Part shown: in pieces, positions 16,598-35,324 of the stretch
Layout: every line of letters begins with the position of its first letter
Position numbering within the stretch: the first letter of the stretch is position 1
Assembly: GCF_029543125.1 (NCBI RefSeq)
Contig: NZ_JARQWW010000002.1
Span: 620,001 to 684,000 of the forward strand
DNA: 64,000 bases
Source: Caulobacter segnis
Lineage (GTDB): Bacteria; Pseudomonadota; Alphaproteobacteria; Caulobacterales; Caulobacteraceae
Direction: 5' to 3'
Position numbers and translations under genes: made by a program
Notes under the pieces: model-generated
Told to the model about the DNA's origin: nothing
What the model saw: the letters and a program-made list of their open reading frames with translations, nothing else
Databases searched by the model: none

Positions 16598-17542
16598 ATG
16601 TCCCTGCGCGTCGCCGTCCAGATGGACCCCATCCATGGGGTCAACATCGAGTCCGACACCACTTTCCTGATGATGTTGACGGCGCAGGAGCGCGGCCACT
16701 CGCTCTGGTTCTACACCCCCGACCGGCTCAGCCTGGAGGACGGCCGGGTGTTCGCCCGCGCCCAGAAGCTCGAGGTGAAGACAGCCCAGGGCGAGCACGC
16801 CAAGCTGGGGCCCGTGGAGGTCCTCGATCTCGCCGAGGACGTGGACGTGATCCTGATGCGCCAGGATCCGCCCTTCGACATGCACTACATCACCGCCACC
16901 CACATGCTGGAGCGCGTGCATCCCAAGACCCTCGTGGTCAACAATCCGGTCGAGGTGCGCAACGCCCCCGAGAAGCTGTTCGTCACCACCTTCCCCGGCG
17001 TTCAGCCGCCGACCCTGATCACCAGCGACCGCGAGTCGATCTACGACTTCCGCGCCCGTCACGGCGACGTGGTGCTGAAGCCGCTGCACGGCCTGGGCGG
17101 CCTGGGCGTGGTCCGCCTGCGCCCCGATGATCCCAACCTCGACGCCCTGCTGGAGCTGCATGGCATGGCCAGCCGCGACCAGGTGGTGATCCAGAAGTTC
17201 GTCCCGGCGGTGAGCAAGGGCGACAAGCGCATCCTGCTGATCGACGGCGAGCCCGTGGGCGGCATCAACCGCGTCCCGGCCGAGGGCCAGGTGCGCTCCA
17301 ACCTCGCCCGGGGCGGCACGGCTCACCCGTTCGAGCTGACCGCCCGCGACAAGGAACTGTGCGCCATCATCGGGCCGGAGTTGAAGGCGCGCGGCCTGCT
17401 GTTCGTCGGCATCGACGTGATCGGCGACTACATGACCGAGATCAACGTCACCTCCCCCACCGGCGCCCAGCAACTGAAGCGCTTCACCGGGATCGACGCC
17501 ACCGCCGCCCTGTTCGAACGGATCGAAGCCCTGGCGATTTGA
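16598..17542 (+). CDS. gshB: Glutathione synthetase
   Basis: ATP-grasp ligase that joins gamma-glutamylcysteine and glycine to make glutathione. The 314-residue protein opens [22 protein letters not shown] and has [31 protein letters not shown], the ATP-binding [16 protein letters not shown] loop, and [20 protein letters not shown]. Usual length for the bacterial enzyme. Last intact gene of the rightward series from rdgB; the sequence downstream is decayed. Confidence 0.97.
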
Positions 17543-17639
17543 CCAACAGCGTCGCCCCGACTATGCTTCATATGTGAAGGGTGACACTTCGCCCACTGCT
17601 GTTGTGGGTGAAATTGTCCTGGTTCGACTTCTCCAGTTC

Positions 17640-17984
17640 ATGCCGCTCTCGGTGAAAAGCCACGCGTTCAGGAACGGCTTCCGTCGTTCTTGGCGACTTC
17701 ATCTCCCTCCAGGCGTCGCCGGGCCTCGCCGTCATCAAGGTCGGCGGCCTGACGATGCACGCCGGACCTGACGGCGCGTTCGTGGATTTCGGCGCGCCGG
17801 CCTTCTCGTTCGAGGACGCCATGCGTTTGGCCGCAGAGGTCGCGCCCGGGGGTCCGAGGTCGTCTTCCATTGGGGCGGCGAGTCCTATGCCTTCATGAAG
17901 GACGGCGATGCGCCTGCCGTGAGCCTCGTGGGGATGGCCCATATGCCGCTCATGGTGGCGCCGGAGGAAGCGGCGCCAGTTTAA
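17640..17984 (+). pseudogene. Frameshifted gene of unknown family
   Basis: Coding-like sequence with strongly GC-rich third positions, but split over two frames. From ATG 17640 (MPLSVKSHAFRNGF) the frame must change near 17681, where one extra base is present, to read VVLGDFISLQASPGLAV and on to RLAAEVAPG; a one-base loss in the G5 run at 17848-17852 returns to the first frame to give SEVVFHWGGESYAFMKD, ending VAPEEAAPV at TAA 17984. The joined product would be about 114 residues. I do not recognise the family. Either a pseudogene or two indel errors in the assembly; the bases from 17543 to 17640 show no coding signal. Confidence 0.5.
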
Positions 17985-17997
17985 GTGTGAAGGCTAG

Positions 17998-18390
17998 ATG
18001 ACTGATCGCCTTCATTTTCTTTCTTGGTTCCCCATCTGTTCGCGATCCGACCCGAACGTCCGTTATCACCTGTGGATAACTTCCGCCCGCGTGGCGAAGG
18101 CGCGCCGTTTTCAGGTGGAACGCGCCGCCAAGGCCGGTCCCGGCGCGGCGACGCTGAACGCCCGCGCCGAGGGACGTTTTCTTGAGGAGGCCGCGGCCAT
18201 GGACCAGACTGGCCATACGCTTCTGACCCGCGCCGCCGAAGCTGCCGGCCTGACCGCGCGGGGTTGGACCCGAACTCTGCGCCTGGCGCGGGCCACCGCC
18301 GACCTGGATGGGTCGGACCAGGTCCGGCGCGTCCATGTGGCCGAGGCCGTGGTCTATCGCCGCGTGGGGACCCTGGAGCCCACCGCCTGA
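17998..18390 (+). pseudogene. comM: 3' remnant of comM (Mg-chelatase-like AAA ATPase), C-terminal domain only
   Basis: The last about 100 residues match the C-terminal domain of ComM/YifB proteins: SARVAKARRFQVERA, LNARAEGRFLEE, HTLLTRAAEAAGLTARGWTRTLRLARATADLDGSDQVRRVHVAEAVVYRR. A full protein is about 500 residues; the AAA ATPase core and N-terminal Lon-like domain are missing. The frame opens at ATG 17998, but residues 1-28 do not look like ComM and their codon use is atypical, so the join is near 18085. ComM is a branch-migration helicase in natural transformation. Expression of the remnant is doubtful. Confidence 0.75.
18071..18079 (-). promoter_or_regulatory. DnaA-box consensus match
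   Basis: TGTGGATAA on this strand is TTATCCACA on the other, a perfect match to the DnaA box. It lies alone in the AT-richer junction just before the comM remnant. One such match in 64 kb can arise by chance, and there is no box cluster or AT-rich unwinding element, so it does not mark an origin. Confidence 0.35.
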
Positions 18391-18394
18391 CCCC

Positions 18395-18838
18395 CTACTT
18401 GGCTGGAGTCTTGGCCTCGCCCATGAAGGTCTTGTTGACGATCAGCCAGCGACCGTCGACCTGCAGCAGGGACATGTAGTCGGTGTAGCGGACGGTCGGA
18501 TAGTCGAGGACGATCTTCGCCACGCCCGCCCCGCCGACCACATCGATGCTTTCGATCCAGCGCTTGCGTTGGGCCTCGTCCGCCGAGGCGCGGCCCGAGC
18601 CGGCGCGCACCGCATAGGCGGCGGCCGTCTCGCGGAACACCTGGCCGTTGCGGATGCCGAACAGCTCCGCCTCCGGATGGAAGGCGCGCGCGAAAGCCTC
18701 ACGGCTGCCGGTGCGATGGCCTTCCAGATAGCTCTCCAGCGGCGCCAGGATGGCGGGATCGACCTTGTCGGGCGCAGCGGCGAAGGCCGCGCCCGTCATC
18801 GACACCAGACCCGCCCCCGCGGCCAGAAGCACCTTCAT
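18395..18838 (-). CDS. Exported lumazine-binding-like (NTF2-fold) protein
   Basis: A 147-residue protein with a signal peptide (MKVLLAAGAGLVSMTGAAFA) and a domain resembling the putative lumazine-binding/NTF2-like family: LESYLEGHRTGSREAFARAFHPEAELFGIRNG, then IDVVGGAGVAKIVLDY and YTDYMSLLQVDGRWLIVNKTF. No catalytic residues can be assigned and the ligand is unknown; likely periplasmic. The start at 18838 is the first residue of the signal peptide. It ends four bases from the comM remnant, and its promoter must lie in the 156-base gap shared with the kinase gene. Confidence 0.82.
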   Translation of the reverse strand: MKVLLAAGAGLVSMTGAAFAAAPDKVDPAILAPLESYLEGHRTGSREAFARAFHPEAELFGIRNGQVFRETAAAYAVRAGSGRASADEAQRKRWIESIDVVGGAGVAKIVLDYPTVRYTDYMSLLQVDGRWLIVNKTFMGEAKTPAK

Positions 18839-24766: not shown

Positions 24767-24842
24767 GGGAAAATCCAGATTGAGGGCCGGCTTATAGCAG
24801 ATGGGCGTTAATCCCGCAAAAACAGGCCCCTGCGACCCTAAA

Positions 24843-24943
24843 TCCTCCCCCCTTGGGGGAGGTGGCCCAAGGGCCGGAGGGGGCTTGCTGAGCAGAAAAC
24901 CCCCTCCACCGCTTCGCGGTCCCCCTCCCCCGAATGGGGCGGA
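24843..24943. repeat. Intergenic fold-back element (imperfect long inverted repeat)
   Basis: Two C/G-rich arms of about 42 bases, 24843-24884 and 24900-24943, are imperfect inverted copies (left starts TCCTCCCCCC and has GGGGGAGGTGGCCC; right has CCCCCTCCACCGCTTCGCGG and ends ATGGGGCGGA), separated by TTGCTGAGCAGAAAA. Each arm can also form its own small hairpin. Elements of this style are common between genes in Caulobacter-type genomes. It lies between two leftward genes, rlmN and the isoaspartyl peptidase. Confidence 0.75.
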
Positions 24944-24946
24944 TTT

Positions 24947-34949: not shown

Positions 34950-35324
34950 ATGTGGAGCCCGCCTCAGAACAAGCTGCCCCTCGTCCTCGCCGCGCTCGGC
35001 GTCTGCGCCGTCTGCGGCTTCGCTGTCGGCGTTCAGGGCGCGTTCCAGCGTCAGGGACCGCCCACGGTGGCCGCCGCCGCCCCCGACAGCCGCATCGCCG
35101 CTCCGGCCAAGGACGCCGTGCCCTTGGGCGCGCCGCTGATCGAAACCAAGAAGGTCGCCGAGACGCCCAAGGAGGAGCCGAAGGAAGAGGAGGTCGTGGA
35201 GACCGCCGAAACCGCCCCGGCCCCCGTGCCGATCCCGTCGGCCCCGGCGCCCACGACGCCCGCTCCGGCCGAGGCCCCTGCCACCGATCCGGCCAAGGCG
35301 CCGCCGCCGGTCATTCCCTACTGA
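34950..35324 (+). CDS. Hypothetical single-pass membrane protein with Pro/Ala/Glu-rich tail
   Basis: A 124-residue protein: one N-terminal hydrophobic helix (LPLVLAALGVCAVCGFAVGVQG) followed by a low-complexity tail with acidic KEEPKEEEVVE and proline-rich PAPVPIPSAPAPTTPAP stretches ending PPPVIPY. No known domain. The tail resembles TonB or periplasm-spanning linkers in composition, and it is divergent from a TonB receptor gene with a Fur box between them, so a TonB-linked role can be imagined but is not shown. Strong GC bias at third positions supports coding. Confidence 0.65.
   Translation: MWSPPQNKLPLVLAALGVCAVCGFAVGVQGAFQRQGPPTVAAAAPDSRIAAPAKDAVPLGAPLIETKKVAETPKEEPKEEEVVETAETAPAPVPIPSAPAPTTPAPAEAPATDPAKAPPPVIPY

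Follow-up and report, generated by a model that had tools for sequence, protein, structure and literature searches.

A comM gene ended by deletion in a Caulobacter genome, with losses of comEC and the gene transfer agent in the same and sibling species

We find it probable that a short open reading frame (ORF) downstream of gshB in the window, that is, the whole 64,000-nt stretch of Caulobacter DNA analyzed here, is the stub of a comM gene killed by deletion, and that the com import arm decayed lineage by lineage after the gene transfer agent (GTA) had been lost. The stub itself is ordinary gene decay, and decay of comM as such has been seen before. The interest lies in the context, where three linked losses (comM, comEC and the GTA) with unlike lesions in three related species suggest, as correlative evidence, that the three form one pathway. 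G000 denotes the genome holding the window (4.08 Mb, 11 contigs), other G numbers the compared genomes, and L numbers loci.

Results

A C-terminal remnant of comM at a deletion junction

The ORF at 17998–18390 encodes 130 aa, and the C-terminal domain of ComM was recognized at residues 29–121 through a match to PF13335 (Mg_chelatase_C; E 2e-21, 76.7 bits). The TIGR00368 profile, covering ~500 aa with a cut-off of 362.4, was matched at positions 410–499 with 43 bits, which leaves the ORF outside the ComM family; the AAA core with Walker A/B and the N-terminal part are absent, codons 1–406 being gone. The original prediction, made from the letters of the window, that only ~100 C-terminal residues of the ~500-residue ComM are left and that the AAA core is gone, is therefore borne out by both profiles. 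The first 28 codons of the ORF belong to the old upstream region and not to comM, which begins at ~18083.

Table 1. Features of the comM locus and its flanks, in window positions
Feature	Positions	Strand	Evidence
gshB, glutathione synthetase, intact flank	16598..17542	+	Pfam GSH-S_ATP, GSH-S_N
Frameshifted orphan gene	17614..17984	+	Homologue open in G083 and G023, frameshifted in G012
Conserved comM upstream region, retained despite comM loss	17968..18082	+	Nucleotide alignment to G083 and G012
Predicted LexA-type box GTTC-N7-GTTC	18027..18041	+	Seen in 53/54 comM leaders
TGTGGATAA motif	18071..18079	+	Seen in 53/54 comM leaders
Deletion junction, comM start codon and codons 1–406 gone	18082..18083	.	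1,233 bp, comparison with G083
comM 3′ remnant, Mg_chelatase_C, codons ~407–508	18083..18390	+	Profile matches
Chance fusion ORF, upstream region plus remnant	17998..18390	+	Leader part with stops in G012 and G083
Putative lumazine-binding-like gene, intact flank	18395..18838	-	Pfam PF12893

Among 75 genomes of the genus, the closest match to the stub was found in G083 (72%), whose comM is full, with 508 codons. By blastn, window DNA aligns to G083 on either side of 18082|18083, and 1,233 bp of G083 are missing in between; compared with G083 and the sibling species, this junction showed neither foreign DNA nor the end of an element. The upstream region is 83.6% identical to G083 (17968–18082) and 84.4% identical to G012 (17978–18086), while no DNA alignment to G083 was obtained for 17793–17967, the middle part of the orphan gene, whose G083 homologue is longer. 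The leader carries stops in the same frame in both G012 and G083, so the fusion ORF is accidental. A profile search of G000 with TIGR00368 detected no second ComM; three further matches were weak (E 2e-5 to 4e-4, 20–24 bits) and cover parts of the AAA region in other long frames. The finding that would have spoken most directly against the original prediction, a complete comM elsewhere in the genome, was thus looked for in G000 without success.

Taken together, syntenic flanks, a junction free of foreign DNA and the lack of any second copy found in G000 mark a comM pseudogene formed by deletion, and neither an element nor the end of one lies at the junction as an island-disrupted comM would have it. 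These comparisons support the reading of the locus as a dead comM produced by deletion, with no visible island scar. The prediction had left deletion and island side by side: deletion stands, on the G083 alignment with its missing 1,233 bp, and the island scar gained no positive evidence. In G083, GCCGCNCGCGTGG occurs twice, once at the start of comM and once near codon 407, forming a direct repeat that could favour slippage; it is not relied on because the window lacks ~19 further bases upstream of the repeat.

Separately, the window carries at 24840–24946 a single copy of a dispersed palindromic repeat of ~110–140 bp with a computed fold of −71 kcal/mol. A query of G012 DNA holding copies gave 68 matches in G000. 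Of these, 4 are other sequence, and many of the remainder are one place matched in both orientations; G012, G023 and G083 carry the repeat as well.

The retained leader carries a LexA-type box

GTTC-N7-GTTC is the LexA motif of Caulobacter in the available part of PMC12700426, and ComM is counted in the C. crescentus stress regulon in the excerpt of PMC6473078 (citing Erill 2004). The motif upstream of the remnant, ~42 bp before it, is a predicted site of this kind. To place it, 54 of 60 loci with a comM N-terminus, from Caulobacteraceae and relatives with some species present twice, were used as a leader set, and both the box and TGTGGATAA recurred in 53 of the 54. The sole leader without the box within 150 bases was L113, in which the gap to the assumed comM start is longer. 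The box pattern occurs 5 times in the 64-kb window against 1.4 expected, so the box alone is weak evidence and its conserved position is the argument. Both half-sites are kept in G000, G012 and G023, with a differing spacer of lower A+T than in most leaders, and the lexA gene of G000 has a similar box pattern 49 bp upstream.

The four other sites of this pattern in the window are at 35031, 37946, 56324 and 63960, the last with an A/T-rich spacer. TGTGGATAA, the reverse of the DnaA-box consensus, is DnaA-box-like. A conserved RNA at 17968–18082 was considered and dropped, as no Rfam match up to E 1 was obtained in 17500–18500. In G012 (L071), the deletion puts the comM leader with its LexA-type box near a histidine kinase gene, whose control may thereby have been rewired.

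Different comM deletions in G000 and its two nearest species

In a search of 28 genomes, the nearest species to G000 were G012 and G023, with GshB identities of 94% and 93%, respectively. The genus assignment, Caulobacter, follows from the named relatives matched by GshB, with 79% identity at best (C. endophyticus, C. vibrioides, C. zeae, C. hibisci and C. radicis). Reading of the junction sequences showed that comM of G012 retains ~17 decayed N-terminal codons with the 3′ part gone, and that of G023 only about the last 12 codons. On these junctions, G000, G012 and G023 lost comM through different deletions with unlike breakpoints. One ancestral deletion with a shared left breakpoint, as a first blastn had suggested, was ruled out by the printed junctions: since G012 keeps the first ~17 and G023 the last ~12 codons, the apparent shared edge is merely the conserved upstream region. 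The original prediction had reckoned with close relatives carrying the same short gene; G012 and G023 carry other breaks, and the proposed alignment of the locus to relatives returned a full-length comM in G083, with a homologue of the orphan gene also upstream.

A gshB tree, built from the gshB sequences of 28 of 29 loci, grouped G083 with G023 (0.91) and G000 with G012 (0.78). When four blocks were concatenated, support reached no more than 54 and 67. In sequence identity, G000, G012 and G023 resemble one another more than they resemble G083 in three of the four blocks.

The stub compared with G083 gave dN 0.21 and dS 0.81 (dN/dS ~0.25), and G083 compared with G085 gave 0.27 and 0.98 (0.28). 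With six outgroups, 10–14 amino-acid changes were unique to the window versus 4–9 unique to G083, G064 giving the closest pair of counts (10 versus 9), and the gshB dS between G000 and G012 is 0.33. A stub dN/dS near the G083/G085 value, together with the counts of unique changes, points to a recent loss in G000, well after the split from G012, if the simple mutation model of the neutral simulations is assumed.

The orphan gene upstream is frameshifted

The gene between gshB and the comM leader was found, among the loci compared, only in G000, G012, G023 and G083. G083 and G023 have open homologues of 234 aa and 111 aa, respectively; in G012 and the window the gene is frameshifted, and three-frame translations of the window place the frame changes near 17681 and within the G run 17848–17852. 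With the TTG near 17614 taken as the start, there would be one more, near 17640. Both indels proposed beforehand are therefore confirmed as frame changes and read as firm, and a third is probable on this reading of the translations. No Pfam match up to E 0.1 was found for the two open homologues, and the G083 protein had no match in a plasmid collection.

comEC and the GTA cluster are damaged or lost in the same species

The comEC gene of G000 adjoins lexA on contig C5 and lacks one base at codon ~382 (near contig position 355865), outside a homopolymer. It is otherwise open over 723 codons, an outcome reproduced in none of 400 neutral simulations at a distance of 0.15 under the same simple mutation model, and the one-base lesion could be an assembly error. 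In G012, codons ~42–717 of comEC are gone; in G023, codons ~48–481 are gone and the frame changes at 530; in G083, comEC is intact. dprA scored above its cut-off in G000 and G012, and a comF-like gene is present in G000, G012 and G023, scoring under the family cut-off as it does in each of the 18 genomes searched.

The GTA was traced by its distal tail protein (TIGR02217) and its megatron (NF048004) at NCBIfam cut-offs, which were exceeded in 55 and 56 of the 75 genus genomes, respectively. A profile search of G000 found no match to either marker. G012 holds a TIGR02217 fragment (E 7e-4) and megatron fragments (tblastn with the G083 protein), G023 fragments of both, and G083 has both above cut-off. 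In G000, the flanking genes remain at the syntenic site, together with at most 3 matches of 26–31 residues to ORFs of the G083 cluster region, and against proteins of G003, which has an intact cluster, the flanking gene alone matched; G012 and G023 keep cluster fragments. G083 itself matches G003 ORFs across the GTA cluster to the megatron, with four tail/baseplate genes above NCBIfam cut-offs. The first matched genes of the G083/G003 cluster we take, from their position, to be terminase- and portal-like.

Overall, comM, comEC and the GTA are all damaged or gone in G000, G012 and G023, with differing lesions, and all three are kept in G083. The GTA recipient pathway (comEC, comM, comF and dprA with the GTA cluster) is thus incomplete in G000, with comM and comEC broken and the GTA absent. 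The original prediction, though supported in part, had missed the losses of comEC and the GTA cluster.

Losses of comEC and comM across the genus

Next to these species, comM was classed by frame length in the 75 genus genomes, and comEC was called open by the same measure. In 54 of the 75, comM lies in a long frame; these include G092, where a contig end cuts it. The disrupted genes comprise 6 deletions (G000, G012, G023, G026, G014 and G093), 8 insertions (G005, G098, G020, G087, G078, G081, G084 and G091) and 1 frameshift in G007 (L075), where one base is missing in the Walker B codons, amounting to 15 of 69 assessable genomes. Genes cut at contig ends (G034, G013) were not counted as disrupted, four genomes (G015, G016, G017 and G027) stayed unassigned, and G089, at first a candidate for a split comM, was counted intact because it has a single 501-aa ORF.

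By both markers, 19 of the 75 genomes are GTA-negative, the sub-cut-off fragments in G012, G015 and G023 being counted as negative and G094, without TIGR02217 but with the megatron, as positive. The genomes with a missing or broken comEC are G000, G012, G023, G004, G013, G014, G093 and probably G068 (two frames), all of them GTA-negative. This makes 8/19 GTA-negative versus 0/53 assessable GTA-positive genomes (Fisher p 6e-6, kinship ignored), after the GTA-positive G079, G080 and G092, with comEC cut at a contig end, had been dropped; at a completeness of at least 90%, the figures are 4/12 versus 0/47 (p 0.001, kinship ignored). comM is disrupted in 9/16 GTA-negative versus 6/53 GTA-positive genomes (p 0.0005, kinship ignored), and at a completeness of at least 90% in 4/10 versus 6/46 (p 0.07, kinship ignored). 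These counts include close kin, namely G000/G012/G023 and G014/G093, and the last two are partial genomes of 1.5 Mb.

Several genomes run against a link between com genes and the GTA. The comM frame is long in seven GTA-negative genomes, and 11 of the 19 retain comEC; G004 combines a long comM frame with the lack of comEC, and comM is broken in six GTA-positive genomes. In G026 (L073), GTA and comEC are present, comM is cut to ~23 N-terminal codons, and no dprA match was found.

Of the 6 genomes whose comM suffered a deletion, 5 also have a missing or broken comEC, versus none of the 9 with an insertion or frameshift in comM. Hence two routes of comM loss can be told apart, one by element insertion with comEC open and the other by deletion, mostly with comEC loss.

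Mobile elements in comM of other genus members

The original prediction had called comM an insertion hotspot, and this proved right for other members of the genus. Tn7-like genes for a Mu-type transposase, TniB and TniQ lie in comM of G005 (L074) and G098 (L084/L194) at codons ~279–282, with a TnsA-like gene in addition in the G098 element. An IS1595-type transposase sits at the Walker B codons in G020 (L076), G087 (L192) and, in another family, G045 (L079); G091 (L193) has similar ends there and is probably of the same type, its contig stopping just inside the IS1595-like end. Integrations at codon ~344 (NPC|RCGHGG) were found in G078 (L189), G081 (L190, L088), G084 (L191, L085) and G087 (L192, L086), with the right junction alike in all four and the left one seen in G081, G084 and G087. 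A large serine recombinase gene stands beside this junction in G081 and G087, and comM of G078 has an additional break near codon 217. Excision of an element from G007 was considered as well; the duplication footprint sought at its Walker B frameshift was not there, and a single base is missing instead.

Discussion

In Rhodobacter, according to the excerpts available of PMC10883770 and PMC6473078, ComEC, ComF and ComM import GTA DNA, and DprA and RecA recombine it; the former also gives rates of comEC, comF and dprA that covary with those of GTA genes. It is because Com proteins import GTA DNA there that we take the stub to reflect a decay of GTA-DNA import following the loss of the GTA. By analogy, ComEC and ComM would serve to import and recombine the DNA of GTA particles, with comM raised upon DNA damage. 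Without the GTA, these genes would have become superfluous and would have decayed separately in each lineage, an order of events that we infer; in G000, the deletion would have taken the comM start codon with codons 1–406 and joined the LexA-box leader to the C-terminal domain. A broader proposal, which we hold tentatively and at somewhat less than even weight, is that the main role of the Caulobacter com genes is to act as the GTA's import arm, that the SOS response raises comM to let damaged cells recombine GTA-borne repair templates, that GTA loss leads to repeated independent decay of comEC and comM, and that the stub is a recent snapshot of this decay. The clade around the window is a natural knockout series, in which the link between com genes and the GTA is directly testable.

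Com genes could serve the uptake of free DNA instead of GTA DNA, and the window might then record a loss of transformation unrelated to the GTA, whose own loss would be a coincidence of genome erosion. comEC and comM are indeed classical transformation genes, and comM is often inactivated in Acinetobacter baumannii (available part of PMC11472951); we consider this explanation unlikely, given that comEC loss is confined to the GTA-negative genomes of the genus, kinship being ignored in that count. The hits to comM by Tn7-like, IS1595-type and serine-recombinase-associated elements elsewhere in the genus lend some appeal to an island that once sat in the window copy and left by a deletion taking the flanks. 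Such elements break comM at codons ~217, 279–282, 302–316 and ~344, and the window breaks, before the start codon and at codon ~406, coincide with none of the insertion sites found. Moreover, the junction shows no trace of foreign DNA or of an element end, and comEC, broken in G000, is long in all nine genomes with an inserted or frameshifted comM, all of which makes a mobile-element scar distinctly improbable.

It may also be asked whether the C-terminal domain persists as a small protein of its own under the former LexA-type promoter, seeing that its 102 codons run without a stop or frameshift at a dN/dS of ~0.25 with a LexA-type box ~42 bp upstream. Neutral simulations at distances from 0.2 to 0.05 were nonetheless stop-free in 39–77% of cases, so the absence of stops proves little. 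Besides, comM has lost its start codon, the stub is altered at positions that do not vary among seven aligned relatives, and the C-terminal part is lacking in G012 and reduced to ~12 codons in G023. The stub is probably not a working protein, and its retention as one appears the most improbable of these accounts, with very little probability left to it. We therefore keep to a comM killed by deletion, amid decay of the import genes after GTA loss.

In the titles and beginnings of abstracts that were screened, no report of a joint com/GTA loss, or of com genes in Caulobacter GTA transfer, was found; comM as a whole word had no match in PMC8649781, and the parts available of PMC13236601, PMC9836097, PMC13384398 and PMC6120978 contain nothing on com genes. 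C. crescentus was called a species without competence machinery in a 2022 study (PMC9632790, available excerpt), despite which a long comM frame is present in 54/75 genus genomes.

Among known systems, comM of A. baumannii is inactivated by AbaR/Tn7-like and other elements in 22% of strains in the portion available of PMC11472951. As there, comM has been lost repeatedly in the present genus (15/69 assessable genomes); unlike there, the window holds an element-free deletion, accompanied by loss of comEC and the GTA. Tn6022/Tsy target the Walker B region of comM via TnsF (PMC10293859, in part), to which the Tn7-like genes in comM of G098 and G005 and the IS1595-type insertions at Walker B are comparable, whereas the window locus is without an element. 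In Piscirickettsia salmonis, the comEC channel gene is likewise broken, by transposable elements in the excerpt of PMC12955456, but here by one missing base in G000 and by deletions in its siblings. The closest parallel in gene content is the recipient machinery of RcGTA (ComEC, ComF, ComM and DprA), the same genes being concerned here, where GTA loss accompanies the loss of comEC and comM; in contrast, the RcGTA study, in the part available (PMC10883770), deals with rate covariation among GTA-bearing genomes and does not name comM as co-evolving.
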